A DNA stretch of 64,000 nt, taken from positions 32,192-96,191 of IMG/VR virus record IMGVR_UViG_3300046323_000360; one strand, 5' to 3'. The notes below the pieces were generated by a model. The model was not told the origin of the DNA. It was given only the letters and a program-made list of their open reading frames with translations, and ran no database searches. Both the position numbers and the translations under genes were made by a program. Below are positions 32,366-56,087 of the stretch, one piece after another. The stretch's first letter is position 1. Every line of letters begins with the position of its first letter. The stretch is from a virus.

Positions 32366-32382
32366 AGTATTTATTTTTTCTG
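32366..32382 (-). repeat. Inverted left-end copy of the array element
   Basis: AGTATTTATTTTTTCTG on the plus strand, opposite to all internal copies. It marks the left limit of the array, 28 bases before the start of the gene at 32338. Confidence 0.85.
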
Positions 32383-32389
32383 AGCAGGT

Positions 32390-32690
32390 CGGCAGGGCAA
32401 GTCGGCGAGCGCCAGACTCAATGCTAGGCAGGGTTACGGCAGGGGCTAGGGTTTAGGGCTTCTAGGGGCTAGTCGGCAAAGGGCTAGGGGCTAGGCAGGG
32501 CTAGGCAGAGTCTTCTAGGGGCTAGGCAGGGCTAGGCGAGTAAATACCTAGTCTGAGCCGTGTAGGGCTTCTAGGGGCTTCTAGGGGCTTCTACGGCAAT
32601 AACCCTAGTGAATGGCTATTGGCAGGGCTAGGCAGGGCTAGGCAGGGTAAAAGAAAACCGCCTAACCCCAAAGGGCTAGGCGGTCTCGAG
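32390..32690. repeat. G-rich low-complexity repeat block
   Basis: About 300 bases made of short direct repeats: GGCTAGGCAG recurs about six times and CTTCTAGGGG about five times, interspersed with CTAGGGCTAGG variants. Strong G over C skew on the plus strand. No ORF. A terminator-like stem (ACCGCCTA/TAGGCGGT) closes it near 32662-32692. Candidate origin, recombination site or slippage-amplified sequence. Confidence 0.8.
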
Positions 32691-32702
32691 AGCCGTGTAG
32701 GG

Positions 32703-32969
32703 CTAGCAGTCCAAGTCTTGAAGACTTGCCAACTTCATACCAATAAGGTCTAGGAAGTCCGCATACTTCGCAGTGTGTGGGGCTTGACGAACAGCGTCAG
32801 CACGGTCACGCAGAGCGTAGCGGATAGCCGAAACTTCATCATCGCTGAAGTGGTTCAGCAAGTCTGAAGTCGCATCGGCAACAACCATAACGGTTCCGAA
32901 GTCATTAGTAACAACTGGAATAGGCACGATAAATCCCCTTTCAGGATTATGAAGTCCGATTGACTTCAT
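32703..32969 (-). CDS. Hypothetical array protein, leaderless
   Basis: 88 residues from ATG 32969, chosen because a full promoter (TTGCGA-N17-TATGAT) ends six bases before it; the in-frame ATG at 32987 lies upstream of the -10. NDFGTVMVVADATSDLLNHFSDDEVSAIRYALRDRADAVRQ looks like a compact helical domain. No family recognised. Confidence 0.65.
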   Translation of the reverse strand: MKSIGLHNPERGFIVPIPVVTNDFGTVMVVADATSDLLNHFSDDEVSAIRYALRDRADAVRQAPHTAKYADFLDLIGMKLASLQDLDC

Positions 32970-32975
32970 ACCTAA

Positions 32976-33004
32976 ATCATACAGCAACTAATCAGCAATC
33001 GCAA
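32976..33004 (-). promoter_or_regulatory. Array promoter of a leaderless unit
   Basis: TTGCGA (32999-33004), 17 bases, TATGAT (32976-32981); ATG six bases downstream. The array element starts 29 bases upstream (33034). Confidence 0.75.
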
Positions 33005-33160
33005 ATCGAGCGAATAGGGTCAGGGCCATTTGCCAGAAAAAATAAATACATCAACCGGCGAGCGCCGGCAAGCGCACAAACTTGAGCCGTGTGCCAGTCC
33101 ACGCCAGCGGAAACGCAAAAAGCCCCCTGCCTTTCGGCAAGGGGCTTCGGGGGTTTGTGT

Positions 33161-33502
33161 CTAGCGGAACAAGTTCACAATCACCGAAAAGCGAGTGCGC
33201 TTCTTGCTCTGGTCAATCAGCGGAACAATCGCCGACACAAGGTCAGGGTAGGTTGCGGTTAGGGCTTCAACGAAATCGGCTTCGTTGAATGTGGCACGCT
33301 CACGCCAGTCACGGCGAGCAACTTCAACATTGTGGTGAACCAGCAAATCGCTGTCACCAAAAGCCGTGTTGATGGCCTTGTCCAACTGCTTCTTTTCGGC
33401 TTCAAGGTCAGCAATCTGCTTCTTGACTTCGGCGAAACGCTTGACGGTTTCGACAATCTCACGGCTTGCCTTGCTTGCTACTGCGGTTGTTACTGCGGTC
33501 AT
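33161..33502 (-). CDS. Array paralogue family member 1
   Basis: 113 residues from ATG 33502 (AAAGGGG eight bases before), rather than the in-frame GTG at 33511. N-terminal Ala/Thr-rich stretch, a helical coil (ETVKRFAEVKKQIADLEAEKKQLDKAI), then LLVHHNVEVARRDWRERATFNEADFVEAL, TYPDLVSAIV. The same layout recurs in the products at 38410, 45800 and 48886. The C-terminal (H)(H)xxEVxR...D...L...(Y/H)P motif resembles small proteins found beside YqaJ-type exonucleases in other phages; no exonuclease is in view. Confidence 0.75.
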   Translation of the reverse strand: MTAVTTAVASKASREIVETVKRFAEVKKQIADLEAEKKQLDKAINTAFGDSDLLVHHNVEVARRDWRERATFNEADFVEALTATYPDLVSAIVPLIDQSKKRTRFSVIVNLFR

Positions 33503-33540
33503 TGTGACCACCCCTTTCGGGCTACTTATGTTTCACCCTT

Positions 33541-33582
33541 GCTTGATACTTCAAGCATACAGGGTTTCAACCAGAAGCGCAA
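33541..33582 (-). promoter_or_regulatory. Array promoter with palindrome
   Basis: TTGCGC (33577-33582), 17 bases, TATGCT (33554-33559). The palindrome GCTTGA-N4-TCAAGC (33541-33556) begins inside the -10 and extends over the expected start point. Confidence 0.75.
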
Positions 33583-33722
33583 ATCGAAATGCCACGCAGG
33601 GGAAACTTCCAGAAAAAATAAATACATCAGCCCTGCCCGCCAACTCGCCTGCGAGAAGTGAGCCGTGTAGGGTAAAAGAAAACCCCCTAGCCTTTCGGCT
33701 AAGGGGTTACTGGGGGCTACAC

Positions 33723-33911
33723 CTATTCGGCGTAGTTGAAGCGCTTGTCCAGCAACTCTGGAGCAAACGCCTCAAGAATGTTGGCAATCTCGCTAATGCG
33801 AGTTAGGCGAGCGTCAGGGCGCTCGTCATCGCTAGAGCCGTTGAAGCCTTCGGCTTCGACAGCGTCCATTAGCGTCGAACACTCGACGGCTAGAGCCTTT
33901 AGGTTAGACAT
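33723..33911 (-). CDS. Hypothetical array protein
   Basis: 62 residues, helical and acidic (SNLKALAVECSTLMDAVEAEG, RISEIANILEAFAPELLDKRF). Ribosome site GAAAGGGGTTTCAA. Own promoter, with palindrome GCTTGA/TCAAGC at 33941-33956, and own terminator. No family recognised. Confidence 0.65.
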   Translation of the reverse strand: MSNLKALAVECSTLMDAVEAEGFNGSSDDERPDARLTRISEIANILEAFAPELLDKRFNYAE

Positions 33912-34126
33912 TTGAAACCCCTTTCGCCAGAACCTTTCTGGCTTGATAAATCAAGCATAGCACTATCGGCAAACTCTCGCAACACGCACGCACCGACGCG
34001 GATCGTTTTTCAGAAAAAATAAATACATCATCTTCCCCGAACTTTGAAGTTGTTCAGAAGTGAGCCGTGTTACGCAGAGCAAAGAAAAACCCCCAGCCTA
34101 ACGGCTAGGGGTCAAACTTTCTTGGG

Positions 34127-34306
34127 CTAGAACTCTACGCCCTCAGCGCCATAACGAACACGATAGGCGTGGATAGTCTCAGCGTTACGGCGAGCCTGAG
34201 CCTTGAACTCTTTAGCCTCTTGGAACTTATAGACGGCAATCAAGATACCAAAGGCTAGAACATTAGCCCCCACGATAAAGGCGATAACGGATACAAAAGT
34301 TAGCAT
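34127..34306 (-). CDS. Small membrane-anchored protein
   Basis: 59 residues: LTFVSVIAFIVGANVLAFGILIAVYKF is one membrane helix, then a basic tail QEAKEFKAQARRNAETIHAYRVRYG. ATG overlaps the preceding stop (TAATG), so it is coupled to the membrane protein at 34306. Confidence 0.65.
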   Translation of the reverse strand: MLTFVSVIAFIVGANVLAFGILIAVYKFQEAKEFKAQARRNAETIHAYRVRYGAEGVEF

Positions 34307-34503
34307 TACTTTTCACCCCCATTGCCATAGGCAAATAAGCCAACTAGAAAACCAACAAAACCTAATGACGCAAAGAACGCAGGAACAAATAGCAACTCGA
34401 AAGTCTGCACTGAGCCGTGTTTGATTGCGTCACCTAGCCAGATAAGTATTGCCCCAAAAAACATTACGGCTACGAAGTTCGCAACCTTTACCTTGAAGTT
34501 CAT
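34306..34503 (-). CDS. Two-helix membrane protein
   Basis: 65 residues from ATG 34503 (GAGGGAAAGGGAGTA upstream). Two membrane helices (VANFVAVMFFGAILIWLGDAI; FELLFVPAFFASLGFVGFLVGLF). Forms a two-gene unit with 34127. Confidence 0.65.
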   Translation of the reverse strand: MNFKVKVANFVAVMFFGAILIWLGDAIKHGSVQTFELLFVPAFFASLGFVGFLVGLFAYGNGGEK

Positions 34504-34697
34504 TACTCCCTTTCCCTCAAGCAACTCTTGCTTGATACATCTAGCATACACCTTGCCTACGACAAAAGCAAACTCTGAAGTAAGCCGTGTATAGGGTTTT
34601 ACATAAAAAATAAATACACTCGGGCGACCTGCGATTTCGCCAAACTCGGCAAACAAAAAACCCGCCACTAGGGCGGGTTAGTTGTTGAGTTGTTGGG

Positions 34698-34904
34698 TTA
34701 GAAAAGTTTGCCTTTTCCAGTGAAGAAAGTGAATACGACTGCGCCAGCGATACCGAAAGTGAATCCATTATTCCACGCTTCGGCAATACCGAAACTAGCA
34801 CCAGCACCAAGTCCGATTAGCAATGCACAAAGAACTACATAAGCAAGAGCAATGGCAGGAACTAGAACAATACTTGCTACTGCTCGGCGGATTACATACT
34901 TCAT
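34698..34904 (-). CDS. Small membrane protein
   Basis: 68 residues from ATG 34904 with GAAAAGAGGGAAAAA upstream. VIRRAVASIVLVPAIALAYVVLCALLIGLGAGASFG is hydrophobic, and a second helix lies near the C-terminus (FGIAGAVVFTFFTG). Function unknown. Confidence 0.65.
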   Translation of the reverse strand: MKYVIRRAVASIVLVPAIALAYVVLCALLIGLGAGASFGIAEAWNNGFTFGIAGAVVFTFFTGKGKLF

Positions 34905-35121
34905 TTTTTCCCTCTTTTCAGTTGGAACTTTTCCAACTAACTCAATGCTACACCAACTGAAAAACTTTCGCAACTTCAAGTGAGCCGTGTAGTAGTAGTT
35001 GGCGGAAAAAATAAATACACGAACAACAAAAGAAAAAACTGAAGTCACTCGCGGCGACTCCAGCCCAGACAAAAGAAAAGAGGGCTAATCAGTTTCCTGA
35101 CTAACCCTCTCGCCTCACGAA

Positions 35122-35352
35122 CTAGTGGCTCTTGCTGAACCCTAGGCAATCCTCGTTACCGCACTCGCACTGCTCGACTCCGTGTAACTGCTCTGAGCAA
35201 CCCTCGGCAGAACATACCTGCCCGAAGTCCAACTCTACGCACCCATACCAGCCTGCGTAACTTGCGTGGCTCTTTGCGTGAAAGTCTGAACAAAAGTATT
35301 CAGCCTCGACTACATCGCCCTTAGTGTCCTCGATAAGAACTGCGTTAGCCAT
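35122..35352 (-). CDS. Cys/His-rich array protein
   Basis: 76 residues from ATG 35352 (GAGGGGAG ten bases before). FCSDFHAKSHASYAGWYGC and CSAEGCSEQLHGVEQCECGNEDC give nine Cys/His pairs suited to two zinc sites. No family name recognised; similar miniproteins are common in actinophages. Confidence 0.7.
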   Translation of the reverse strand: MANAVLIEDTKGDVVEAEYFCSDFHAKSHASYAGWYGCVELDFGQVCSAEGCSEQLHGVEQCECGNEDCLGFSKSH

Positions 35353-35566
35353 AATGACCAACTCCCCTCTATTTAGTTTCCAACTCAAGCCCCTCGGCTT
35401 GATACATCTAGCCTAACACGACCCTCTGACTTTTCGCTTGACTCTCGCCGTGTCCTAGTCCAACTTGCAGAAAAAATAAATACAGCCGCCGGCGACAACT
35501 TTGAAATAAAAATAAGAAAAAGAAAACCCCCGCCTTTCGACGGGGGTTCGCTGGTTTATTTGTTTG

Positions 35567-35836
35567 TTAGCGGTTTAGGTTTGAGAGGTTGAAGTGTTCA
35601 ACCATAGAGAGTTCATACTCTGCCCATTCTTTGGCTTCGGCTTCGGCTTGCTCGATAGTTGTCACGCCATACACCGTGCGAATGTCCACTACATCAAAGA
35701 AGATACCTGCGTAGTGCGCTGGCTTGAACCACTGAAAAGTTGCTGACCCGTTCCAAGTAATGAAAAACTCGTTCTCGCTGTCTGCGTAAATAATCGCCCC
35801 GTTGTCCTTGACGATGTCATAAATCTTATTGCTCAC
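35567..35836 (-). CDS. Hypothetical array protein
   Basis: 89 residues, alternating beta/aromatic pattern (AIIYADSENEFFITWNGSATFQWFKP) then a helix rich in Glu/Ala. Own promoter with palindrome GGCTAT/ATAGCC (35864-35879) and terminator. Unknown. Confidence 0.65.
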   Translation of the reverse strand: MSNKIYDIVKDNGAIIYADSENEFFITWNGSATFQWFKPAHYAGIFFDVVDIRTVYGVTTIEQAEAEAKEWAEYELSMVEHFNLSNLNR

Positions 35837-36021
35837 TTGTTGCCCCTTTCAACCAGACTTTCTGGCTATGTCTATAGCCTACCCTACTCCCACGACATTT
35901 GCCACCCCACCCCGGCGCGGTTACCAGAAAAAATAAATACACTAACCACCATCAAGAAAAACCAAACAAGCAAAAAGAAACCCCGTGTTTCCACGGGGTA
36001 TCTCCGAATACTTTTTAGTTG

Positions 36022-36279
36022 TTAGAAAACCAACTCTGGCAACTCAAACACTTCACGCAACTTTGCTTCCAACTTGTTTAGGTTGCTCTCGGCTTTCTCG
36101 AATGAACCCCAAACATAGTTTGTAGTTAGACGCTGGATTTCTGCGTTGCGAGCGCACTCTGCCCAAACCATAGCGATAGTCATTTCACTCTGGTAATAGG
36201 CTTTCAAGTCGCCACCAACCAACTTGCGAACGATAGCAAACGCCGTGTCTTGGTTTTGCTTGATAGTCAAATCAGTCAT
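36022..36279 (-). CDS. Hypothetical array protein
   Basis: 85 residues, helical: TIKQNQDTAFAIVRKLVGGDLKAYYQSEMT, KAESNLNKLEAKLREVFELP. Palindrome GCTTGA/TCAAGC at 36306-36321 in its promoter. Unknown. Confidence 0.65.
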   Translation of the reverse strand: MTDLTIKQNQDTAFAIVRKLVGGDLKAYYQSEMTIAMVWAECARNAEIQRLTTNYVWGSFEKAESNLNKLEAKLREVFELPELVF

Positions 36280-36472
36280 TTGTCTTTCCCTTTCTCAAGC
36301 CCCTTGCTTGATAGTTCAAGCATACACCACCCCTTCGACAAAACAAGTATTCTTATTGCGTTGTTGCGTCACCTGGCAGAAAAAATAAATACAGATAGAC
36401 ACAACAAAAAAGCAAAGATAAACGGGCAAAGAAAAAACCCCGTGTTATCCACGGGGCTTCAACTTCAAACTA

Positions 36473-36640
36473 TTAGCGAATAGTCAATACGCCCTTGCTA
36501 TCAAGTTCAACTTCCAAGTCAAAGTGCGTTGCGTTTTCAACGACCTTGATTTGGTTGCCAACTGATAAGCGACCTACCAAGATACCTGCTCCCAAAATAC
36601 CGAAACAAATAATGGCAAAAGCCAATCCTGCGTAATCCAT
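36473..36640 (-). CDS. Small membrane-anchored protein
   Basis: 55 residues: MDYAGLAFAIICFGILGAGILVG forms an N-terminal helix, followed by a short beta-rich tail. ATG overlaps the stop of the 36640 gene (TAATG). Confidence 0.65.
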   Translation of the reverse strand: MDYAGLAFAIICFGILGAGILVGRLSVGNQIKVVENATHFDLEVELDSKGVLTIR

Positions 36641-36807
36641 TATGCCCACTCCCTTAGTGCGTTAGTCTTGCGAGCCAATCGAGTATTGGCACGCTTTGTT
36701 GCTTTGTTGCCGTGAACGCCACTTGCGTTCGAGCGTGAACGCTCACGCAAGATTACGGCGAGCGCCTTGCTCTCTGCCTTGCGTCTTGCTTCGTTAGCCT
36801 TGTTCAT
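36640..36807 (-). CDS. Small highly basic protein
   Basis: 55 residues, Arg/Lys/Ala-rich (NEARRKAESKALAVILRERS; KATKRANTRLARKTNALREW). Probably nucleic-acid binding. Upstream member of a two-gene unit. Confidence 0.65.
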   Translation of the reverse strand: MNKANEARRKAESKALAVILRERSRSNASGVHGNKATKRANTRLARKTNALREWA

Positions 36808-36977
36808 CTTGAACCCCTTTCATCTGGCTTATTCCAAGCCTACCACACCCCTACGACAAAGCAACTTATGACTGCACCGTGTGTAGGGTTATTGACAGAA
36901 AAAATAAATACACCAAACCCCTACAACTTTCGGGCAAAAGAAAACCCCCGCCGAAGCGGGGGCTTGCTTGCTGGGGG

Positions 36978-37145
36978 CTAGAGCCGAGGGTCGTGTTCGC
37001 TCATCTCTGACGGCTTTGGATAATAACCCTCGGTAACCTCCCAAGGGAAGTCTGGCGTTGGGTCGTAGCAGCTCTCGCAAACGCTATCGCTTTCGCTAAT
37101 CTCGGCTTTGCAGTATCGGCAAATCTCTGTTTCGTTGTTTGACAT
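36978..37145 (-). CDS. Zn-ribbon miniprotein
   Basis: 55 residues. CRYCKAEI...CESCYDP gives a CxxC-CxxC zinc ribbon; an acidic C-terminus follows. GAAAGGTAGGGAA precedes ATG. Confidence 0.7.
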   Translation of the reverse strand: MSNNETEICRYCKAEISESDSVCESCYDPTPDFPWEVTEGYYPKPSEMSEHDPRL

Positions 37146-37289
37146 TTCCCTACCTTTCTTTCTTGGTTACTACCAAGTTACACCATCTGACCAACAAAGT
37201 CAAATCGAAGTTCCGTGTTGGGGTTTATTGGCAGAAAAAATAAATACATACAGGGGTCGAGAAAAAAGGCGGGTTTCCCCGCCCTTTCC

Positions 37290-37652
37290 CTAGTTGCTTG
37301 CGTAAGCCAACACTGCTTGCTCTGTCGCCTTGAGAAACGCTTCAACATCAGACTCGCTGAGTGGAAGTTCATTGCCCTCGTCATCTGTCTTGTTCGATAC
37401 CAAAACAACATCGCCCAAGATAACATCTGTCTTGCCGTATGACGCTTCCCAAATAGCGGTGGCAATGTCGTTGAATGGGAGTCCAATCAACTTGCCCTCG
37501 TCGTGAATGTAAAGTGCCAAGCCCTTAAACGCTCCACGCAACGCAATGTGCTGGATAGTTCCGCCTACTGCTTCACGAATGTCCTTGTAAGCAATCTCTG
37601 GCATCTCTACCAAGTCCAAGTCCGTTGTGATACGAACACCTGCTACAGCCAT
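37290..37652 (-). CDS. DUF3846-like protein
   Basis: 120 residues. EAVGGTIQHIALRG, LALYIHDEGKLIGLPFNDIATAIW and GDVVLVS match the conserved blocks of DUF3846, small proteins widespread in phages and plasmids with no known function. Own promoter with palindrome GACTAC/GTAGTC (37691-37706). Confidence 0.7.
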   Translation of the reverse strand: MAVAGVRITTDLDLVEMPEIAYKDIREAVGGTIQHIALRGAFKGLALYIHDEGKLIGLPFNDIATAIWEASYGKTDVILGDVVLVSNKTDDEGNELPLSESDVEAFLKATEQAVLAYASN

Positions 37653-37850
37653 TTCTGACCCCTCTCGTAGCCCTCCGCAACTTGCTTCCTGACTACATAA
37701 GTAGTCTACTCAATCCCTACGACTTTCGCTTGACTCGACTACCCGTGTGTGCGTTAGTTACATAAAAAATAAATACATAAGATAGCCCGTAACTTTCAGA
37801 CAAAAAGAAACGCCCTGCCTTTCGGCAGAGCGTCCTTTGGTGGTTGAGGT

Positions 37851-38216
37851 TTATTCGTCCTCGTCCTCGTCGTCGTCGTCGTTACAGACACCAGCGCAAC
37901 CAGCCTCACCGCAGTCCTCGCACTCGTCCTCGTCAAACTGTCCGATTAGAGTGGTGAAGCCGTCGTTAGGGTCAGCCAAGTTTGTAGCCACGGCACTCAC
38001 GAAACGAAGTGAGCAAGACTGGTCAAACCATTTCTTGACAGTTTCAAGCATTTCGATCGACGACATCTCACTAGCCGTGATGATTGGGTCATACTCATAC
38101 TTACGCATAAGTTCAACTTGCTCGTCATCCATAAGAACATAAATCTTGTGGCAAGTGTCCCAGGTGATTGCCTTAGCGTCCTCTAGGTATTCCTCTACCT
38201 TGTCGAAGTTAGCCAT
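37851..38216 (-). CDS. Hypothetical protein with Cys cluster and poly-acidic tail
   Basis: 121 residues from ATG 38216 (AAAGGGAAATGAA before). Helical N-terminus (FDKVEEYLEDAKAITWDTCHKIYVLMDDEQ) and a C-terminal CEDCGEAGCAGVC cluster followed by DDDDEDEDE. Possibly DNA-mimicking tail; function unknown. Confidence 0.65.
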   Translation of the reverse strand: MANFDKVEEYLEDAKAITWDTCHKIYVLMDDEQVELMRKYEYDPIITASEMSSIEMLETVKKWFDQSCSLRFVSAVATNLADPNDGFTTLIGQFDEDECEDCGEAGCAGVCNDDDDEDEDE

Positions 38217-38409
38217 TTCATTTCCCTTTCCTTGTATCAACTTTTGTTGATAACTCAATCTTACTCGTCTGCTATGACTTTCGCAAATCGTCGCCAACTG
38301 AGAGCCGTGTTTACAGAAAAAATAAATACACCTCCGGCACGCAACTTTTTTCATTTCCGGCAAACGCAAAAAACCCCGCCAACTTAGGCGGGGTATCTGC
38401 GACTAACTC

Positions 38410-38805
38410 TTACTTGTAGAGAGTTGTCAAGGTTGTGTAGATAGTCTGGCTCTGGGCTTCGGCAGTTGCCTCGGCAAGCATAGTGTCTAGGCTATCTGCC
38501 AACTCTGGGTGAGTGGCAACAACTAGGTTGGTGAACGCTACCTTGAAAGCGTCAAGGTTGAAGTTGGTGCGACTACGCCAATCCAAGCGAGCGACCTCGA
38601 TGTTGTGATGAATAAGAGTGTCGAACGCTGAAGTCTTAGCCGTGTCGTCTTTCTCAAACTCTTTCTCCAAGACAGCAACAACTTTCTTAGCCTGACCCTC
38701 TAGAGCCTTGACCTCGGCACGAATGTTTACAAGTTCCTTAACTTGCTCAACAACTACCTTGCTGACTTTCTTAGTGCGAACCTCGGTTGCGGTTGCGATA
38801 GACAT
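38410..38805 (-). CDS. Array paralogue family member 2
   Basis: 131 residues from ATG 38805. Thr/Ala-rich start, coil VKELVNIRAEVKALEGQAKKVVAVLEKEF, then TLIHHNIEVARLDWRSRTNFNLDAFKVAF and THPELADSL, strikingly like the product at 33161. Palindrome GACTAC/GTAGTC at 38840-38855 in its promoter. Confidence 0.75.
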   Translation of the reverse strand: MSIATATEVRTKKVSKVVVEQVKELVNIRAEVKALEGQAKKVVAVLEKEFEKDDTAKTSAFDTLIHHNIEVARLDWRSRTNFNLDAFKVAFTNLVVATHPELADSLDTMLAEATAEAQSQTIYTTLTTLYK

Positions 38806-39017
38806 TTGTTCCCTTTCTATAATCTCTGGCATTTCCTTCGACTACCTAAGTAGTCTATACCCTATTTACGACATTTGCCAAACTCTGAGCCGTGTCGAGG
38901 GTAATACGCAGAAAAAATAAATACACTAACCGGCTGCCACCTTCAGCAAACTTTTGAATAAGAAAAAACCGCCTTAGTCGAAACTAAGACGGATTATCTT
39001 TTTGCTTGTGAGTTTGG

Positions 39018-39296
39018 TTACTGCCAGCGAACAACACGCTTACGGCTATTGCTAGGCGTAATGTGCCAAATAGCCTGCCTTGCCCAATGACCATTCGCAT
39101 AACGCATAGCGGTTGCGAAGTTGTCATAAGTCTTAGACGAACGCCCATTATCCCAAGCGAGTGTCAAGACAAACTTTCCCTTGACCTCACCCGTGTATGA
39201 ACGAACATCAACAATGTTTCCGCTGTAATCTTTTTCTTCGATTACTAATGCGCCCTCGACCTCACCTTTGGTGAAGTAATCTTTGTTGTAAATCAT
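39018..39296 (-). CDS. Hypothetical array protein
   Basis: 92 residues from ATG 39296. VKGKFVLTLAWDNGRSSKTYDNFATAMRYANGHWARQAIWHI is well-ordered alpha/beta sequence. Palindrome GGCTTA/TAAGCC at 39325-39341. Unknown function. Confidence 0.65.
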   Translation of the reverse strand: MIYNKDYFTKGEVEGALVIEEKDYSGNIVDVRSYTGEVKGKFVLTLAWDNGRSSKTYDNFATAMRYANGHWARQAIWHITPSNSRKRVVRWQ

Positions 39297-39480
39297 TTGT
39301 TTCCCTTTCTTATTGTCCCTTTCGGGCTTACCTAATAAGCCTAACATACTCTACGGCAAAGTCAAGTTCAGCCAGAGATAGTGGCAAAACTAGCAGAAAA
39401 AATAAATACACGCAGGTCGAAATAAAAAAATCAGCAAAAGAAAAACCCCTGCCAAAAGGCAGGGGCTTGTCCGTGTCTGA

Positions 39481-39669
39481 TTACCAGACACGAACTCCGT
39501 GAACGCTACCGCACTTACAGTGTGCCTGAGCGATACCGCCGTCAATCATCGCTGGGTCAATCTCTACATCAGCAGAGCAGACTGGGCAGGTGAAGAACTC
39601 TACAGTCTCGACTACACCGCCTAGGTAAGTTACCTCGCGAGTGCTTACTACTACATTTAGAAGTGCCAT
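39481..39669 (-). CDS. Zn-ribbon miniprotein
   Basis: 62 residues. FTCPVCSADVEID...AHCKCGS supplies four Cys for a zinc ribbon. Palindrome GCTTAT/ATAAGC at 39688-39702. The array element upstream runs straight into a 25-A homopolymer. Confidence 0.7.
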   Translation of the reverse strand: MALLNVVVSTREVTYLGGVVETVEFFTCPVCSADVEIDPAMIDGGIAQAHCKCGSVHGVRVW

Positions 39670-39771
39670 TTCTTTTCCCTTTCGTTGGCTTATGTAATAA
39701 GCATAGCATTGTTTTAGACTTTTTCAACTTTTATTATTTTCTTCTTTTTGATTAGCAGAAAAAATAAATAC

Positions 39772-39796
39772 AAAAAAAAAAAAAAAAAAAAAAAAA
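39772..39796 (+). repeat. 25-base poly-A run
   Basis: Twenty-five consecutive A (T on the transcribed strand) directly after the array element at 39756, in the place where a short spacer is found in other units. Confidence 0.9.
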
Positions 39797-39841
39797 GGCA
39801 AAAGAAAAACCTCGGGTTTCCCCGAGGCTTCCTTTCTGCCC

Positions 39842-40060
39842 TTAGGCTACTGACTTCTCCGTGTCAGCAATGGCTTCCTTTAGCCAAGCCAATGCTTCCT
39901 GACGACCCTTGACTCCGCGACCAAAAGTCTTATAAGCGTCAATACCCATTAGACGACCTAGTGACTTCATTGCTGGCTCGCGGGTCATTTGAAACTTACC
40001 CTCCGACTTAATCTCGGCTTCTAGTCCAATGACTAGCAACTTCGCCTGTAGTAGGTTCAC
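39842..40060 (-). CDS. Hypothetical array protein, GTG start
   Basis: 72 residues from GTG 40060 (AAAGGGGTAGGTC before). LLVIGLEAEIKSEGKFQMTREPAMKSLGRLMGIDAYKTFGRG: compact helical. Palindrome GTTGGT/ACCAAC at 40090-40106. Confidence 0.65.
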   Translation of the reverse strand: MNLLQAKLLVIGLEAEIKSEGKFQMTREPAMKSLGRLMGIDAYKTFGRGVKGRQEALAWLKEAIADTEKSVA

Positions 40061-40253
40061 GACCTACCCCTTTCACTTTTGTAACCCTGGTTGGTTACAT
40101 ACCAACTATACACCTTTCCAAAGACTTTTTCAACTTCTTTTATTTTTTCTTTGGCCACCATAAAAAATAAATACAGCTCAGCCGTGTTAGTTATTTCGGG
40201 CAAAAAGAAAACCGGCTGAACATTTCTGTTCAACCGGCTGACTTCGGATTAGG

Positions 40254-40457
40254 CTACTTGACAGTAACCCAAGCCATCGCAGTTTGTAGCAAGTGGTTGT
40301 AGTCGCCACTCATTGAGTCTTTTAGGTAAGCGTCAATCTCTTCTTTTGAAACGCCGTGTTTCTTGAGCGCTGACTTGACAGCCCCCATAATCGCAAAAGC
40401 ATTTCCGTCTTGACCAACTAACTTGACCTTGATTGCTGGATACTTTACATCTGACAT
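40254..40457 (-). CDS. Hypothetical array protein
   Basis: 67 residues from ATG 40457 (AAAAAGGGGAAACAA before). IKVKLVGQDGNAFAIMGAVKSALKKHGVSKEEIDAYLKDSM is a recurrent small phage domain whose role I do not know. The array element is unusually far, 168 bases from the start. Confidence 0.65.
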   Translation of the reverse strand: MSDVKYPAIKVKLVGQDGNAFAIMGAVKSALKKHGVSKEEIDAYLKDSMSGDYNHLLQTAMAWVTVK

Positions 40458-40711
40458 TTGTTTCCCCTTTTTGGTGGGCTTCCAAGTCGGTGGTTGGGAA
40501 GAACTCTCCATTGCCACTCTTATCTAGTCCTAGGCTGGAAGCGTTAGGTTTTTTACCTAACACTCTTATAGTAGCACTTCGCACAGACAAAATGTGATTA
40601 CTATTTTGAAGTTGCTCCCGCCGCCAGAAAAAATAAATACACGCAAACAAAAGCAAAAACAAAAAAAAAAACCAGCCAACCTTTCGGCTGACTGGCTCTT
40701 TATTTTTTCGG

Positions 40712-40942
40712 CTATTCGGCAGAAACCGCAGCGAAATCTGCGCCACTGGCAAAGGTATCCGAAATGTATTCGATAGCGATACCTACAGGGTCGTCGCAAT
40801 CAGACTCCATACACTTCAACTGATAATCCAAAACTACTCCCGTGAGAGAGTCCGTGTAACGAACAATCTCAACTTTGTGTCCATAGTGAGCAGACAACTG
40901 CTCATTGAACCACTGCTCGCCCTTTACGAGTTTTTTACTCAT
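40712..40942 (-). CDS. Hypothetical array protein
   Basis: 76 residues. YGHKVEIVRYTDSLTGVVLDYQLKCMESDCDDPVGIAIEYI; two Cys, acidic. Strong AGAAAGGGGAAACAA ribosome site. Unknown. Confidence 0.65.
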   Translation of the reverse strand: MSKKLVKGEQWFNEQLSAHYGHKVEIVRYTDSLTGVVLDYQLKCMESDCDDPVGIAIEYISDTFASGADFAAVSAE

Positions 40943-41086
40943 TTGTTTCCCCTTTCTAGGTATCTATAGACTACAGCACACCTACGACAAAAACTCTGAA
41001 CATTATTTAGAACTTACCACGCAGCCATAAAAAATAAATACACTTTACGATTCGAAGAAAGTGAAAACATTTGGGCAAAGAAAAAG

Positions 41087-41187
41087 GGCTAGAGAGTTGG
41101 GGGGAACTCTCTAGCCCGTGTTGCCTAGTGAAAGGGGGATAAAACTAGGCAACCTTTTACCTAGCGAGGGGGGTGCTAGGTAAGTCT
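41087..41187 (-). terminator. Three tandem hairpins with C-rich (anti-Shine-Dalgarno-like) loops
   Basis: On plus: GGGCTAGAGAGTT/AACTCTCTAGCCC with loop GGGG(GG); TTGCCTAGT/ACTAGGCAA with loop GAAAGGGGGATAAA; TTACCTAGC/GCTAGGTAA with loop GAGGGGGGT. Transcribed from the minus strand, the loops read CCCCCC, TTTATCCCCCTTTC and ACCCCCCTC, complementary to AAAGGGG ribosome sites. They follow the stop at 41193. Confidence 0.8.
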
Positions 41188-41192
41188 AAAAA

Positions 41193-41345
41193 CTAACTAC
41201 GCCAATACTCGTGCCAAAAGTTTTTCTTGCCTTTTAGCATACGAATAAGACTTGGCTTCCAAAAACAATACCACCTATTGCGTAACCAAAACATCTCACG
41301 CTTGAGTTGTGTCCTGATGTCACGCTTCTCTTTGTGCTTTGCCAT
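41193..41345 (-). CDS. Small basic protein
   Basis: 50 residues, Lys/Arg/Trp-rich (KHKEKRDIRTQLKREMFWLRNRWYCFWKP). ATG after GAAAGGGAGAAAGAA. Probably binds nucleic acid or membrane; unknown. Confidence 0.6.
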   Translation of the reverse strand: MAKHKEKRDIRTQLKREMFWLRNRWYCFWKPSLIRMLKGKKNFWHEYWRS

Positions 41346-41523
41346 TTCTTTCTCCCTTTCTCTGGCAACAAGATAACTCTACTACAACTGAGCCGTGTTC
41401 GCAACAACAACACGACGCGACTTCAAACTAACAGAAAAAATAAATACAGCTTCCGGATAACAAACAAATAAGCAAGGCAATAAAAAAGCCCCGCCTTTCG
41501 GCAGGGCTTTCTTGTTTTGTTGT

Positions 41524-41682
41524 TTAGTAGTTTTCGTTCACAAACTCTAGGGCTTGCTCTTGCGAAACACTTGCGTCACGAAGCAAAGTAATCAACTGCT
41601 CGTCTTCTGACAACAACTGAACTGGAACTGTGCTTTCGCCCGAAAGCATTAGCAACTTCTCGAATAGGCTTGGGGTTGTCAT
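41524..41682 (-). CDS. Small acidic helical protein
   Basis: 52 residues (TTPSLFEKLLMLSGESTVPVQLLSEDEQLI...). ATG after AGAAAGAGGGACAA; own element at 41777 and a terminator with CTTTCGG loop. Unknown. Confidence 0.65.
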   Translation of the reverse strand: MTTPSLFEKLLMLSGESTVPVQLLSEDEQLITLLRDASVSQEQALEFVNENY

Positions 41683-41881
41683 TTGTCCCTCTTTCTAGTT
41701 GGTTTTCCAACTAATCCAATACTACACCTTTGATACGACATTTTCAACTCCCGTGTTTAGCCCGCGTGCTATTTCGCAGAAAAAATAAATACACCTATCT
41801 TCGGCAGCGCTACCACGCAACTTCTAAATAAGGTAAAAAGAAAACCTGCCCGAAGGCAGGTTTCCCGTGAGAGCCTAAGCC

Positions 41882-46539: not shown

Positions 46540-46664
46540 TTGTGTTTCCCCTTTCTTTGGCTATACTCATAGCCTACACCTTGCCAGCGACATTTGCACA
46601 AAAAACTTTTTGTTTGGCGTGTCAAGTTCAGAAAAAATAAATACACTTGCCCCCGTGACAAAAA

Positions 46665-47109: not shown

Positions 47110-47274
47110 TTCAAATCCCTTTCATCTGGCTACTGCGCTTCACCTGATACTTCAACATTACCAGCATTTACACTCCAGCGCAACATCTGGCAAATCCCGT
47201 GTCTAGTGTCAGAAAAAATAAATACAAATCCCGTATAAGAAAAAACGCTGGCGACTTCTCACCAGCGTTATTCC

Positions 47275-47568: not shown

Positions 47569-47678
47569 ACTCAAACTCTATCCCAACCCTGTGACATTTT
47601 GCTAGAACCTTTTGGCAAGTGTCAGAAAAAATAAATACAACCTCGGCAAAAAAGAAAAAGTGCCTTTCGGCACTTTCA

Positions 47679-48405: not shown

Positions 48406-48690
48406 CTAACTTACCACTAAGTCGGCGTATTCGTCAAGTGCTTCTGGCGTGTCTGGAATGGTGTGTCCAGCCATACGAAATCCAGCCTCGATGATTAGGC
48501 TGTGTGGTTCAAAACCTAAGGCGTGTGCCACAATCTCAAGAAACTCTGACGAGATTTCCTTTTTGCCACGCTCAACTTCTGACAGATAGCCAAGAGCAAT
48601 AAAGCCTTTGTCTGACAAGTCGCGCAACACCATTCCACGACTTAGGCGTGTTTCGCGTAGCACTTCGCCAAGAGCGTCTTTGAATAGCAT
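48406..48690 (-). CDS. XRE-family HTH regulator
   Basis: 94 residues. HTH_3 domain about residues 8-66: VLRETRLSRGMVLRDLSDKGFIALGYLSEVERGKKEISSEFLEIVAHALG, like actinobacterial ClgR-type regulators. First gene of a four-gene cassette behind the element at 48783. The only clear classical DNA-binding regulator inside the array, so a candidate for controlling it. Confidence 0.82.
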   Translation of the reverse strand: MLFKDALGEVLRETRLSRGMVLRDLSDKGFIALGYLSEVERGKKEISSEFLEIVAHALGFEPHSLIIEAGFRMAGHTIPDTPEALDEYADLVVS

Positions 48691-48824
48691 TTAGTGTTCC
48701 TCTCCTTTTCGTGTTTCGTATCAAAACTCTACCAGCAACCTATGACATTCTCCAACTTCGTATTAGCGTGTTCAAAAGTTAGCAGAAAAAATAAATACAT
48801 TCGTGTTCCCCTGAAAATAGAGAA

Positions 48825-49275: not shown

Positions 49276-49388
49276 ACCTAAAACCTTAGCAGGTTGTTTC
49301 GACATTCGCAACTCCTCGCAGAAAAAAGTCAGAAAAAATAAATACACGCTGGGGGAAAAGAAAACCCAGACTTTCGTCTGGGCGTTTC

Positions 49389-49601: not shown

Positions 49602-49605
49602 TGCT

Positions 49606-50203: not shown

Positions 50204-50304
50204 TTGTGTCCTTTCTTTGGGGTCTTATCAAGTTAGCAGTTTATTGAGTTGTTGTCAAATCATTAGTCATAATCATCATAAAAAATAAATACATAGTCAT
50301 AAGG

Positions 50305-51537: not shown

Positions 51538-51670
51538 TTGATTTCCTTTCGTTGCCTTAGTTCAGGATAGCATACCTTCAATCAACAAGCAACTACTAAT
51601 CAAAAGTTTTCTCTTTCTTTTTTTCAGAAAAAATAAATACTCCCCTCGAAAATACCGGGCGAAGCGAAAC

Positions 51671-51796: not shown

Positions 51797-53659
51797 TTAG
51801 AAACCAGCCGTTGCTTTTTCCAGAGCCTCGCTCGCTGACTTTCCAATCAGGGTCGCAATGTTGCTTGGCTCTAGTCCGTCAAGCAGAACCGCGTGAGTTC
51901 CCTTGATAATCTCACGAGCGTTCCAACGCTCGCCGTGAACCTTGTCTGGGCTAATCCAGAGAACAGCCACGCCGTTCTTTTCGCAAGCCTTGACAGCCTG
52001 ACGCGCGTTCTCGGTTTCAACATCTGTATAACAGCCGTCCGATACGACAACCAACATACGCGCACCGCGTCCGTAGAGCAGGTCAAGTGTGCCGTCCAGA
52101 GCCGAGAAACCCTTGCCAAACTTTTCTGTGCCGTCCGTTGCCGAATAGACGCGAACCTCGTCCAACTTCTGTCCGACCTTTAGAGTGGCGAACACATCAT
52201 TGCCGTAATAGACCATAGCGGTCTTGGCTTGAATACGCTTGCCAGCCTCACCAAGAACCCACGCCGTAGTTGCCATAGGGTTCATAGCCGAACCCATAGA
52301 ACCGCTAATGTCCACCATTACGCCGATAGACAGAGTTGGCTCGTCCGTGTGCTTGCGAACCTTGTGTTCCCACGCAGGGTTCTTGCTCATAATGCCCTTG
52401 CTCTCTAATGCCTTGTTCTGAACAAGAGCGCGAGAACGCAGACGACCTGCTGGCAGTTCCGAGCGAATAATCGTCAAGTCGCGCTCGCGGTATTTTGCCT
52501 TGTCCAACATCTGCGCGACTTTGACAGAGGCAATGCGCTCTGCCGAAGTTGGCTTGCGAACCTCGACCAAGCGAGAGCCAGAGCGAGAGGAGGGCATAGT
52601 GGTCGTGCCTTTGCTATCGCCATTGCTCTGCTCAAAAACTTCTTGGGCAGTTGCCTTGTTAGAACGAATAATCTTTTGGGTCTTGGCGCGTTCTTTGGTT
52701 TCCTTATCCCAATCCTCTTGGGTCTGCTGGTCGCCCAGAGCGTTGCCAGTTGCGATAGCAGTTTCCATTGCGTCCTCTGCCAGAGCCTCAATGAGTTCGA
52801 CAATAAAGTTGCCCTCGCCCTCGCCCTCGCCCTCGCCAGAACCAGAGCCAGCGATAACAAAGCCACCCTCGCCCTCGCCAGTTTCCTCGCCCTGTTCCTC
52901 GGCGCGTTCCTTTAGCAGTTCGACCCACTTGGTAGCCAGCGCAATGCCAGCCTCTAGGTCGCCTGTCTTGTGGCAAACGAGAGCCTGAAAGTCAATCCAG
53001 ATTTCGCGCAACTTGGCAACTAGGTCTGGGCTAAGAACCTCAAGAACCTTTTGCTCAACAAGCAGAATGTCGCTTGTTTCAAGAACGCCAGCGTCCACGC
53101 GAGCCAAAGACAATCCTGCTAGGTGAGCAGTTGCGAAAGTCTTGGTCATTTTTTCAAGGTCGCCCTCGCTAAGGTCGCCCAGAGCAAGTTGTAGAGCAGA
53201 GGCGCGTAGGAACAACTTGTTCTCTGGCATACCCTTTGCCCCTAGACCCTCAATGCGACTTTCCTCCAAGAGCATAAAAGCGTCAATGACCTGCTTGTCT
53301 TGAGTCAGAGTTTCAAGATACTCAATGTTCCAAGTGGTGTGCTTGGCGTGTAGTGCCTCGTGATAGATAACCCCTGTTGCTTGTGGAAACTCAAACTGCT
53401 GGTCGCGCTCGCGGAGGTCGCCAACCATTGTTGGCGTAGTTGCCTTGCCAAAGGCAATAGGCAAGTTGATTTCGATTTCGGCGGTATCGCGGTAAAATGC
53501 GGCGAGTGCCTCTCCATTTACAGCGTCAATGCCAGCGTAAACAACTAGGTCAGTTCGACCTGCCCAATCGTTTGCGACCTGTCCAATCTGGGCGCAGGTG
53601 TGTAACCATTCGCGCGGAGTTTCGCTTTTGCGTTCCGCAATCCTTGAGTAGTGAGCCAT
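51797..53659 (-). CDS. VWA-domain protein (CobT/MoxR-partner type)
   Basis: 620 residues. N-terminal half contains GVIYHEALHAKHTTW, a HExxH-like zinc-peptidase motif, and helical sequence. An acidic Gly/Glu-rich linker (GSGEGEGEGEGNF) is followed by the C-terminal VWA domain with MIDAS VDISGSMGSAMN (about 449), ATDGTEKFG and VVSDGCYTD. Such proteins work with MoxR/CobS-type AAA+ ATPases to insert metals or remodel complexes; the ATPase gene is directly upstream. Promoter TTGACA-N17-TTTACT at 53702-53730. Confidence 0.85.
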   Translation of the reverse strand: MAHYSRIAERKSETPREWLHTCAQIGQVANDWAGRTDLVVYAGIDAVNGEALAAFYRDTAEIEINLPIAFGKATTPTMVGDLRERDQQFEFPQATGVIYHEALHAKHTTWNIEYLETLTQDKQVIDAFMLLEESRIEGLGAKGMPENKLFLRASALQLALGDLSEGDLEKMTKTFATAHLAGLSLARVDAGVLETSDILLVEQKVLEVLSPDLVAKLREIWIDFQALVCHKTGDLEAGIALATKWVELLKERAEEQGEETGEGEGGFVIAGSGSGEGEGEGEGNFIVELIEALAEDAMETAIATGNALGDQQTQEDWDKETKERAKTQKIIRSNKATAQEVFEQSNGDSKGTTTMPSSRSGSRLVEVRKPTSAERIASVKVAQMLDKAKYRERDLTIIRSELPAGRLRSRALVQNKALESKGIMSKNPAWEHKVRKHTDEPTLSIGVMVDISGSMGSAMNPMATTAWVLGEAGKRIQAKTAMVYYGNDVFATLKVGQKLDEVRVYSATDGTEKFGKGFSALDGTLDLLYGRGARMLVVVSDGCYTDVETENARQAVKACEKNGVAVLWISPDKVHGERWNAREIIKGTHAVLLDGLEPSNIATLIGKSASEALEKATAGF

Positions 53660-53701
53660 TTCCGTTCCTTTCGTTTATGGCTTGTATTTTGTTGTAGTCC
53701 T

Positions 53702-53765
53702 AGTAAAGCAGTTTTTGGAGAGCGTGTCAAGTTGATTTTGAAAAAAGTTTTTTGACACGCTCTCC
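53702..53765 (-). promoter_or_regulatory. Promoter and 14-bp inverted repeat before VWA gene
   Basis: TTGACA (53725-53730), 17 bases, TTTACT (53702-53707). The -35 lies at the edge of a perfect 14-bp inverted repeat GGAGAGCGTGTCAA / TTGACACGCTCTCC (53717-53730, 53752-53765). The other arm carries a rightward TTGACA. Likely operator. Confidence 0.7.
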
Positions 53766-53770
53766 CTGCT

Positions 53771-53795
53771 TTAGCGAAAGGACGAGAAACGCTAA
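53771..53795 (-). terminator. Hairpin overlapping AAA+ gene stop, loop matches its ribosome site
   Basis: Plus TTAGCG/CGCTAA with loop AAAGGACGAGAAA. AAGGACGA is also the ribosome site of the same gene (CTAAGGACGAAAACAAA before ATG 54808), so the transcript loop complements it over eight bases. Confidence 0.65.
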
Positions 53796-54808
53796 ATCTT
53801 TGCTGGCTTGACTTCCTCACCAAAGACGCGAGTGAAAACATCTGCCACTACTGGGCGGTCATTTTCAGGCGCACCTGCGAGCAAGTTAGCAACAGCCCAC
53901 TTAGTTCCAAAGGTCTTGGAAAGGTCGCGGAAAGCAAGTAGTTCGCGCATTTGTGGCGACCAAGAAACCTCACCCGAAACCTGCTTCTTAGACAAGTTCT
54001 GGCTGGCAGTAATCATTGGGGCAGATACACCCAACTTCTTAGCCAATCCCCAATCAGTAGTCATTTCGACCTGAATGGTGAAACGCGATAGCAGAGCCTC
54101 TGACAAGCGAACCCCAGGTGCGTTTGGGTTAGTTGCGCCAACAACATAAAAGCCCTCTTTGGCTTTGATAGTTCCGCGCTCTGGGTTCTGGGTAATGGTC
54201 AGTTCACCGCGTCCGTCCATAAGACCATAGACAGCAGACATAACCTTTGGGTCAATCAGACCAACCTCGTCAATCAAGAGAGGACGACCCTGCTCAACAG
54301 CGCGAACCAATGCGCCGTCAATCCACTCAAAGCCACCAGACGGAGTTTGAACATAGCCACCAATGAAGTCTGAAAGTTCGGTGTCGCCAGAGCCAATAAT
54401 GGTTTCTAGTTCGTCACCAAAAGCACCCTCAACGAGAGCAGTTTTTCCACAGCCCGGTGCGCCATAGAGCAAAACAAACTGGTGAGCCTCACGCGCTTTG
54501 CGTAGAACCTCAATGTCGGTGTGTTCGCCCCAACCACGCGAGTAGTAGTCGTGACCATTCGGGCGAGCATACTTCTCTGCGCCCTTGAGTGCGTCTGTTT
54601 CCACTTTTGCCTTGTCTGCTTGTTTGTGGGTCGTTGGCTCTCCACCCCTATTACGAAGTGTAGCACGACCAGCAGTAGGCATAAGGCTGTCAAGTCCAGC
54701 AGGAACAGCAGTAGGGTCAAGTTGCTGAATAGCAACTCCATAGACCAGAGCCGAAAGGTCTGGGTAGAGAGCGTCAATGTCGTTCTCGACAGGGGCAATA
54801 CTTGTCAT
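53792..54808 (-). CDS. MoxR/CobS-type AAA+ ATPase
   Basis: 338 residues. Walker A GAPGCGKT (116-123), Walker B RPLLIDE (175-181), VVGATNPNAPG (222-232), LLSRFTIQVEM with Arg finger (~242). N-terminal ~85 residues are variable. MoxR/CobS ATPases partner with VWA proteins such as the next gene; cyanophages and other phages carry cobS-like genes. Confidence 0.9.
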   Translation of the reverse strand: MTSIAPVENDIDALYPDLSALVYGVAIQQLDPTAVPAGLDSLMPTAGRATLRNRGGEPTTHKQADKAKVETDALKGAEKYARPNGHDYYSRGWGEHTDIEVLRKAREAHQFVLLYGAPGCGKTALVEGAFGDELETIIGSGDTELSDFIGGYVQTPSGGFEWIDGALVRAVEQGRPLLIDEVGLIDPKVMSAVYGLMDGRGELTITQNPERGTIKAKEGFYVVGATNPNAPGVRLSEALLSRFTIQVEMTTDWGLAKKLGVSAPMITASQNLSKKQVSGEVSWSPQMRELLAFRDLSKTFGTKWAVANLLAGAPENDRPVVADVFTRVFGEEVKPAKI

Positions 54809-54850
54809 TTTGTTTTCGTCCTTAGTTAGTTGGTTTGTTGCTATAAGTGA

Positions 54851-55312
54851 TTATAGCACTTTTTCTGGAAAGTTCAAAGCGACACGCGCTTTCTGGATAC
54901 GGCGTAGCAGAGCAGACGGAGTTTTCCAATCCTTGACTTCTGCTAGGTCAATGGTGCTTACCTCGGCAACAATAGGTGTCTTGCGAAGTTCCATTTCGTA
55001 GGCAATCTGACGCTTGATAACGCTCTCAATCTGGGCAACCATTTCGACAGCCTTTTCCTGTGCTGTGGTCTGCGCGATAGGCGTTCCAAAAAGTTCCTTG
55101 TTGTTCACGCGAGAAAGCGAGATACGCCATTGCTTACGAGGCGACCAATCGCTCACGGTGCGAGAGTGAACAGCCATTGGAACATAGTTGGCACTCTCGT
55201 CAAAACCCTCTGGTGTTACGAGGATTTGGGTAACAACATTCTGACCTGCCTCTTTGGTGGTCTTTGGCACTAACTCAATGTAGATAGCCTTGCCAACAAT
55301 CTTGTCTGTCAT
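54851..55312 (-). CDS. Hypothetical protein upstream of AAA+ gene
   Basis: 153 residues, beta-rich N-terminus (GKAIYIELVPKTTKEAGQNVVTQILVTPEGFDES) and helical C-terminus. Ribosome site AAGGACGAAAAGAA shares AAGGACGA with the AAA+ gene. Likely in the same functional group; unknown. Confidence 0.6.
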   Translation of the reverse strand: MTDKIVGKAIYIELVPKTTKEAGQNVVTQILVTPEGFDESANYVPMAVHSRTVSDWSPRKQWRISLSRVNNKELFGTPIAQTTAQEKAVEMVAQIESVIKRQIAYEMELRKTPIVAEVSTIDLAEVKDWKTPSALLRRIQKARVALNFPEKVL

Positions 55313-55433
55313 TTCTTTTCGTCCTTAGTTCGATTTGTTTGTTTTGGTATTCAGTTGTAGTTATGACTTTACTCGCTTATTTTGAAGTTGTCAAGTCTTA
55401 TTACGAAGTTTTTTATAACGAAATGGTAACGCT

Positions 55434-55964
55434 CTAATAGTGTAGGTCTACGGGAATGAGATACTGCTTTGCTGGGTTGGTCTTTACACGCTCAACGAAA
55501 GAGCGTAGGTTCGCTGTCCAATCAGTTAGGTCATAGATAGCAGTATCTGGTGTCCACTCATCATCAAGTAGTTGTGCCAACTTCTTAGTTCCATACAAGT
55601 CCATGTCCCAAGTTTTCGTGTATGGGTCATAGGCGTATGTAGATAGGTCAATCGCTTTTGACTTGTAGTTGCGAATCTCATCTAGGCGTTGCTGGAGAAA
55701 CTTCTCAATAACAAGTTCGGCGAGCGCAGGCTCGTCTGCGTAGCAGAGGTGGTTAGCAATCTCTGCGTCTGGGTCTGGCTCGCCATTTTTGTTAGGAGTA
55801 AAGAACACAGCGTTAGACCAGCGACCTGCAAAGTCTTTCGTGTGTGCGCCAGAGGCTTCGTGCCAATCTGACCAACTAGGGCTTTCAGACAGTGCGCCCT
55901 CTACTGCGTCAAATGCTTCCTCTGGGCTATCTGCCTCAACGAGCATAATCTGACATACGTGCAT
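55434..55964 (-). CDS. Hypothetical protein, first gene after right array boundary
   Basis: 176 residues. MHVCQIMLVEADSPEEAFDAVEGALSES is a ferredoxin-like beta-alpha start; FAGRWSNAVFFTPN and WTPDTAIYDLTDW follow. The direct element at 56045 lies 81 bases upstream of its ATG. Unknown. Confidence 0.6.
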   Translation of the reverse strand: MHVCQIMLVEADSPEEAFDAVEGALSESPSWSDWHEASGAHTKDFAGRWSNAVFFTPNKNGEPDPDAEIANHLCYADEPALAELVIEKFLQQRLDEIRNYKSKAIDLSTYAYDPYTKTWDMDLYGTKKLAQLLDDEWTPDTAIYDLTDWTANLRSFVERVKTNPAKQYLIPVDLHY

Positions 55965-56044
55965 TTGGGTCGTCCTTTCGTATTTGGATACAACAAGAAC
56001 ATTACCCTATTTAGTTGTTCAATGCAACTCGTGTTGCGGTGTGT

Positions 56045-56087
56045 CAGAAAAAATAAATACAGTATTGGCTCGTATTTATTTTTTCAG
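56045..56087. repeat. Right-end inverted pair of array elements
   Basis: CAGAAAAAATAAATACA (56045-56061) and GTATTTATTTTTTCAG (56072-56087) face each other, a 14-bp perfect inverted repeat with a short loop. The inverted copy ends two bases inside the next gene's stop region. Confidence 0.9.

Follow-up and report, generated by a model that had tools for sequence, protein, structure and literature searches.

In T4-type phages, small genes are separated by promoter early stem-loops (PeSLs; Arbiol et al. 2010, Comeau et al. 2014, as cited in PMC4503421) which, as far as they are characterized in that citing account, combine a repeated terminator stem-loop with a promoter and lie in a plastic region where genes are swapped at the repeats. 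Cluster A mycobacteriophages carry up to about 30 stoperators per genome, short, asymmetric sites that are mostly in one orientation and whose sequence varies among related phages (PMC6550527, PMC9283540); these sites bind a repressor and need no fixed relation to a promoter. In Cluster K mycobacteriophages, small non-structural genes are headed by one-orientation repeats, namely, SAS, which abuts the start codon, and ESAS, an inverted repeat with a subcluster-specific consensus, both of unknown function (PMC3203893). Here we describe an array of 36 same-oriented small units, each headed by a 16-bp element, in the IMG/VR virus record IMGVR_UViG_3300046323_000360 (96,191 bp; hereafter G000), of which bases 32192-96191, a stretch of 64 kb, constitute the analyzed window. 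The array occupies positions 32367-56087 of the window, on the minus strand, with two inverted copies of the element at or near its ends.

The array shares with the PeSLs the dense alternation of terminator stem-loops and promoters between small genes, as well as gene exchange with junctions at the repeat, which was observed in two relatives, G008 and G009. It differs from the PeSLs, as these are described in the citing account, by the additional invariant, lineage-specific 16-bp element that stands in a fixed helical phase with the promoter. Furthermore, the portal, terminase and ATPase place the virus among large actinobacteriophages and not among T4-type phages with early sigma-70 promoters; thus, the array works like a PeSL but is not classified as one. 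Unlike the stoperators, each of the array sites heads a promoter at a helical phase, and unlike SAS and ESAS, the element contains no repeat pair and is located upstream of the -35 box. No earlier description of this type of array was found in the open-licence literature.

Because the array genes are on the minus strand, the element is to be read as GTATTTATTTTTTCTG; in this reading, it has the form (T)GTATTTATTTTTT(C/A)TG and is located between the terminator of the previous gene and the next promoter. The core, AAAAAATAAATAC, has 38 exact copies in the window, 36 of them in one orientation and 2 inverted, compared to 0.01 in shuffled sequences; all lie within 32.4-56.1 kb, and the 32 kb of the record outside the window contain none. 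An earlier note made from the sequence of the window had claimed 36 same-oriented copies with a core identical in 38, which the exact search and the shuffles confirm. When up to 3 mismatches to the 16-mer are allowed, the same 38 sites are recovered along with three 3-mismatch strays, none of which lies inside the array in the array orientation; hence there are no decayed copies, and the element is either intact or absent. The element is asymmetric and very A+T-rich, with a T6 tract; all 13 core positions, including the terminal G, are invariant in the 38 copies, and the base at position -1 is T in 34 of the 36 oriented copies, whereas the tail is CTG in 30, ATG in 5 and CCG in one. The five T-for-G copies singled out in the earlier note indeed exist (at 34602, 37761, 40159, 41026 and 50277, in addition to the CCG copy at 35003), but they do not form the functional subclass proposed there, given that they show the same phasing and no distinct spacing or context, and that the tail varies freely in relatives. 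On both sides, the flanks of the element are nearly random, and no second conserved box was seen at a fixed spacing. When host genomes were scanned for the element, the matches listed were single copies only, mostly in unrelated genomes.

The units have a common order on the minus strand, that is, the terminator hairpin of the previous gene, a gap of 18-70 bp, the element, the promoter, a Shine-Dalgarno sequence and the gene. A terminator-like hairpin is present no more than 110 bp upstream of the element in 28 of the 36 cases, compared to 13% of random array segments and 3% on the opposite strand. A promoter was predicted in every unit, although some of these calls are weak, and in 31 of the 36 units a Shine-Dalgarno sequence and a start codon are found within 110 bp of the -10 box. 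By a crude open reading frame caller, with the end segments counted, 27 units contain a single open reading frame and the remainder contain 2-7.

Strong evidence on the role of the element comes from its distance to the promoter, counted from the first base of the element to the first base of the predicted -10 box. Motif discovery in the small sets of individual phages drifted to Shine-Dalgarno sites, and we therefore used a pooled position weight matrix (PWM), learned without a position prior (TTTGnnAATGTC...G.GTA...T), and then an exact pattern. In G000, the distances cluster at ~57 and 67-68 bp; in the related contig G001, they are 68, 78 and 88 bp, with similar steps in other relatives, so that the overall clusters are at ~57, 67, 77 and 88 bp. 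A period of 10.5 bp gives the best fit to the 143 promoters from ten phages (R 0.56), and for the 115 promoters that remained after deduplication, none of 20,000 samples from the smoothed distribution reached the observed value (p<5e-5). The -10 boxes defined by the exact pattern TGTCR-N11-TANNNT (59 promoters) fall into clusters at 53-59, 62-69, 74-80 and 86-90 bp and yield equal significance, with the best period at 10.9 bp (R 0.62, compared to 0.61 at 10.5). Four control distances showed no significant phasing (p 0.07-0.23). With the first -10 base set as -12, the element is centered at about -61.5, -72, -82 and -92, that is, upstream of the -35 box at helically phased positions, closely resembling the class I CRP sites of Escherichia coli at -61.5, -71.5, -82.5 and -92.5 (PMC11894529). 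Unlike these sites, the array element is asymmetric and is present in dozens of copies in one virus. The placement of the element in the earlier note, 26-31 bp upstream of the -35 box and centered near -70, holds for most copies and for the main distance class, respectively, but 7-8 copies are one helical turn closer (~17-18 bp), and the other classes are one-turn steps away. The suggestion of a class I activator site gains strong support from the ~10.5-bp spacing steps and the unphased controls; activation itself we infer.

The individual copies, all on the minus strand, illustrate this distribution. The shorter distances were observed for the copies at 56045-56060 (GTATTTATTTTTTCTG; 56 bp), 50277-50292 (ATG tail), 49330-49345 and 44156-44171 (57 bp each), 47623-47638 and 45700-45715 (58 bp), and 35925-35940 (59 bp). 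The copy at 39394-39409 is 61 bp from the -10 box by the PWM and 66 bp by a -35/-10 search. Distances of 64-66 bp were found for 40159-40174 (ATG tail; 64 bp), 47210-47225 (weak promoter call) and 43593-43608 (65 bp), and 51625-51640 (71 bp by the -35/-10 search), 41432-41447, 39756-39771 (weak promoter call), 38314-38329 and 33610-33625 (66 bp). At 67 bp are the copies 48783-48798, upstream of the unit with the ClgR-like gene discussed below, 44750-44765, 40625-40640 (weak promoter call), 38909-38924, 37232-37247 and 34011-34026. The most common distance, 68 bp, is shared by 46629-46644, 46248-46263, 45188-45203, 42891-42906, 42418-42433, 41777-41792, 41026-41041 (ATG tail), 37761-37776 (ATG tail), 36377-36392, 35468-35483, 35003-35018 (CCG tail) and 33034-33049, and two copies, 36896-36911 and 34602-34617 (ATG tail), are at 69 bp. 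The two inverted copies, on the plus strand, are located at 32367-32382, an intact GTATTTATTTTTTCTG at the downstream end of the array, and at 56072-56087 (GTATTTATTTTTTCAG). The latter faces the direct copy at 56045-56060 at a distance of 11 bp, such that 56045-56087 forms a 13-bp inverted repeat overlapping the stop codon of the preceding gene; G001 has no inverted copy at the matching place, and the end of the G002 array likewise carries an inverted copy. Directly upstream of the element at 39756-39771, there is a run of ~25 T on the coding strand (39772-39796).

By sequence, the core promoters of the array, and those of several relatives, match the consensus of actinobacterial RecA-NDp/PafBC promoters, which in the mycobacterial RecA-independent DNA-damage promoters is tTGTCRgtg-8 nt-TAnnnT (PMC5656591). 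On the coding strand of the array, there are 16 instances of TGTCR with TANNNT 16 bp further on, compared to 0.3 in shuffles, 2 on the opposite strand, and 0-1 in other parts of the genome; the motif is found 10 times in G001 and is weak or absent in G008 and G009. Thus, TGTCR and the 16-bp spacing are strongly enriched, but the GTG part of the consensus is met only partly (column values 0.17, 0.39 and 0.58). These promoters differ from the described ones in lying within a phage array and in being accompanied by an upstream element, and their dependence on PafBC is putative. This promoter type is served by PafBC; single-stranded DNA activates the protein, which adapts sigma A to a -26 motif (PMC11804915). 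No WYL-domain (PafBC) protein was found in these phage records, so that PafBC would be supplied by the host.

ClgR is reported to recognize the RecA-NDp promoter type in Mycobacterium smegmatis (PMC5656591). A 94-aa ClgR-like XRE-family DNA-binding protein encoded in the array (48406-48690, minus strand; HTH_3, 3.5e-6; ClgR structure PDB 3f51, 2e-15) is a candidate for regulating the core promoters. Its match to the ClgR equivalog NF041677 (5e-21) scores 74.9 bits, below the cut-off of 170; accordingly, we treat this protein as a homologue of ClgR by sequence without assigning it to ClgR. It is present in all ten phages of the element family, but across relatives, its presence correlates only weakly with the density of the P1-type promoter motif (p 0.01). 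The ClgR box CGCYNANRGCG has two matches in the window, approximately the chance level. Overall, the links of PafBC and ClgR to the array promoters are suggestive only. The ClgR-like protein was also considered as the binder of the 16-mer itself, a role that is unsupported because its recognition helix is constant and the element varies. Another candidate regulator, a phage WhiB-family protein, is encoded to the left of the window (G000 15808-16254; L141), and WhiB-family proteins were also detected in G001, G003, G008, G009 and phage DSL-LC01.

Among named records, Actinomycetia phage DSL-LC01 (portal 70%, ATPase 75%) and Microbacterium phage Pumpernickel with its relatives come closest, and from these we infer an actinobacterial host; at the DNA level, there was no match among the named phages of the phage collection. 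The genomes compared here are metagenome assemblies, some of them incomplete. The motif search proposed in the earlier note found the identical 13-bp core at the same place in three IMG/VR contigs, G001 (153.7 kb, 15 copies), G002 (42.9 kb, 21 copies and one inverted) and G003 (66.7 kb, 10 copies), and, in six other relatives, versions of the element that resemble it without being the same and that vary little or not at all within a genome; these lie upstream of genes that are in part homologous. These lineage variants are GTATTCATTTTTTCAC in G004 (23 counted), GTATTCGTTTTTTCC in G005 (16), GTATTCATTTTTTATC in G006 (22 counted), GTATCCACTTTTT in G007 (15), and GTATC(C/T)ACTTTTTTAC in G008 and G009 (18 and 16, respectively); as the stretches counted in G004 and G006 overlap, a copy there might be included twice. 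Some of the versions are less A+T-rich, for example, GTATCCACTTTTTTAC, which is nevertheless uniform within its genome. G000 and G005 have 18 array genes in common, with 37-87% amino-acid identity and different elements, that is, homologous genes carry the element of their own genome. The element is absent from DSL-LC01 (OQ999401.1, L143), which in a syntenic small-gene region (30000-44000) has a repeated promoter motif, GATTCTAAAGATGTTATAAT, in ~17-23 copies; the paper on this lake phage mentions neither promoters nor repeats. More distant relatives sharing the ATPase contain other repeated motifs at the locus, such as TGATATAATAG and TTCTAAAGATGTTATAAT around the -10 box. In the ATPase-linked relatives L184, L195/L200, L203, L213 and L198, which belong to other lineages, the repeats of the region are quite different, namely, GGGTAAAAAT, ACGGCAAGCC, TGCTATCAAGGG, the near-palindrome GGAAATTATAATTT and TGATATAATAG. 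Little was added by two more scans, which looked for relatives through neighboring proteins.

The units common to G000 and G001-G003 differ in order and set. The arrays of G008 and G009 are nearly identical and are set apart by two indels, each of a whole unit. In the first one, the single G009 element has on its left 40 bp identical (100%) to those on the left of the left-hand G008 element, and on its right 40 bp identical (100%) to those on the right of the right-hand G008 element, compared to 20-25% for the wrong-side flanks, which puts the junction inside the 16 bp. The second indel resembles it, except for weaker conservation of the right flank (55% ungapped). Overall, about 2 of the 6 array breakpoints between G008 and G009 are at the element, and in phages of the TGATATAATAG type, many junctions are within 25 bp of the repeated promoter motif. 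The recombination boundary that the earlier note offered as an alternative to an activator site is therefore supported for this type of array, but by the relatives only, given that G000 has no near-identical relative in the collections searched. The two readings are not mutually exclusive.

We consider it probable that the array is a phage regulon of ~36 interchangeable promoter-terminator units, controlled through class I activation via the element, with the units doubling as recombination modules. This model is built on features that can be read directly from the sequences: the element, its phasing, its uniformity within lineages, the match of the core promoters and, in relatives only, the junctions inside the element. 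In this model, the asymmetric 16-bp element of each unit lies upstream of a promoter of the actinobacterial sigma-A type and on the right face of the helix. The element would be bound by a sequence-specific protein, most likely a phage product, which would recruit RNA polymerase in class I geometry, through contact with the C-terminal domain of the alpha subunit, and all units would be switched on together. Host PafBC or the phage ClgR-like protein might provide a second input via the TGTCR that starts 16 bp upstream of the -10 box. Because the element is the longest sequence shared by neighboring units, recombination there would add, remove or move units while leaving regulation undisturbed. 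Between lineages, all copies of the element differ in concert, as co-evolution with its binding protein would predict.

An element that is exactly conserved, confined to the array and held in helical phase suggests a protein that binds it and makes contact with RNA polymerase. That this protein is dedicated to the element, co-evolves with it and is probably phage-encoded is suggested by the asymmetry of the sequence and by its lineage-wide switching. Such a protein might instead be a phage repressor blocking initiation or elongation across the array, with the element as its operator, and the stoperators resemble the element in length, asymmetry, orientation, number and divergence between related phages. 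However, the site is 26-50 bp upstream of the -35 box in a fixed helical phase with the -10 box, which suits a contact with polymerase better, and it heads every unit without occurring inside transcribed regions; in addition, neither an integrase nor an immunity repressor was recognized among the proteins scanned, in a search that was not exhaustive and a record that is incomplete. We regard a repressor as unlikely. We are similarly disinclined to view the element as a distal UP-like sequence or curved A-tract that would be touched by the alpha C-terminal domain or a host nucleoid protein without any dedicated activator. The A+T-richness, the T6 tract and the helical phase with the promoter would all fit, but A-tract contacts in general tolerate sequence variation, whereas here all 13 core positions are invariant, and the less A+T-rich versions of relatives are uniform in each genome; phage Lsr2 was searched for and none was found.

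Two other explanations appear improbable. If the element were solely a recombination boundary, kept identical by recombination and devoid of a regulatory role, the whole-unit indels joined in the element in G008 and G009 and the shuffled unit order among G000-G003 would be readily explained. A recombination site, however, has no reason to be in helical phase with the -10 box, so that among the rivals this one is the hardest to reconcile with the phasing, and most of the G008/G009 breakpoints fall elsewhere. Least probable of all, in our assessment, is that the element forms all or part of a second promoter, recognized by a phage polymerase or a different sigma factor and arranged in tandem with the one for sigma-A. 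An asymmetric box conserved ahead of genes does resemble such promoters, but the nearly random flanks include no second conserved box at a fixed spacing, and tandem promoters require no helical phasing.

Several observations weigh against the activator model that we favor. No phage protein was shown to change in step with the element, and the recognition helix of the ClgR-like protein is kept while the element changes. When the main distance cluster is removed, the phase signal drops (R 0.41) and a period other than 10.5 bp fits best; the -10 boxes are predictions, with a few weak calls, and some of the small phage sets are not significant for phasing on their own. The junctions in the element were observed in relatives and not in G000.

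A broader interpretation, which we put forward tentatively and with more doubt than trust, is that a family of large actinobacterial phages might have wired dozens of single-gene cassettes to the DNA-damage (PafBC, ssDNA-sensing) promoter type of the host and to a class I site of their own, with the activator and its sites re-specified together across lineages and the sites also being the points at which cassettes are exchanged. Such an array would be a plug-in regulon whose address code is lineage-specific. The regulation and exchange of the long runs of small genes of unknown function in large phages are largely open questions, and here one short sequence appears to serve both. The helical phasing provides a sharp, cheaply testable prediction. 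The differing yet internally uniform elements of the relatives amount to a natural experiment in which a regulator would change together with dozens of its binding sites, and which bears on whether a newly gained cassette can be expressed only if it brings along or acquires the right element.

The array is flanked by an AAA ATPase/VWA-like gene pair (51797-54808; the VWA match is weak) and by NlpC/P60, terminase and structural genes. Among the array products, a single-strand DNA-binding protein (43703-44086, minus strand; Pfam SSB, 3.5e-17) is encoded by the only gene of its unit; further recognizable products include a DUF6011 protein as well as weak zinc-ribbon and HicA-like matches. The hexamer ACACGG occurs 58 times on the coding strand of the array and not at all on the opposite strand (32000-56500; ~5.5 expected on each), both within and between genes, with no enrichment elsewhere in the window and a weaker strand bias in G001 (16 versus 1). 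At the downstream end of the array, 32400-32700 contains dense degenerate GCCTAGCCC / CCCCTAGAAG repeats. Adjoining the large terminase gene, 29237-29791 encodes a 184-aa protein with a helix-turn-helix similar to sigma-70 region 4, which is probably the small terminase and possibly a regulator.

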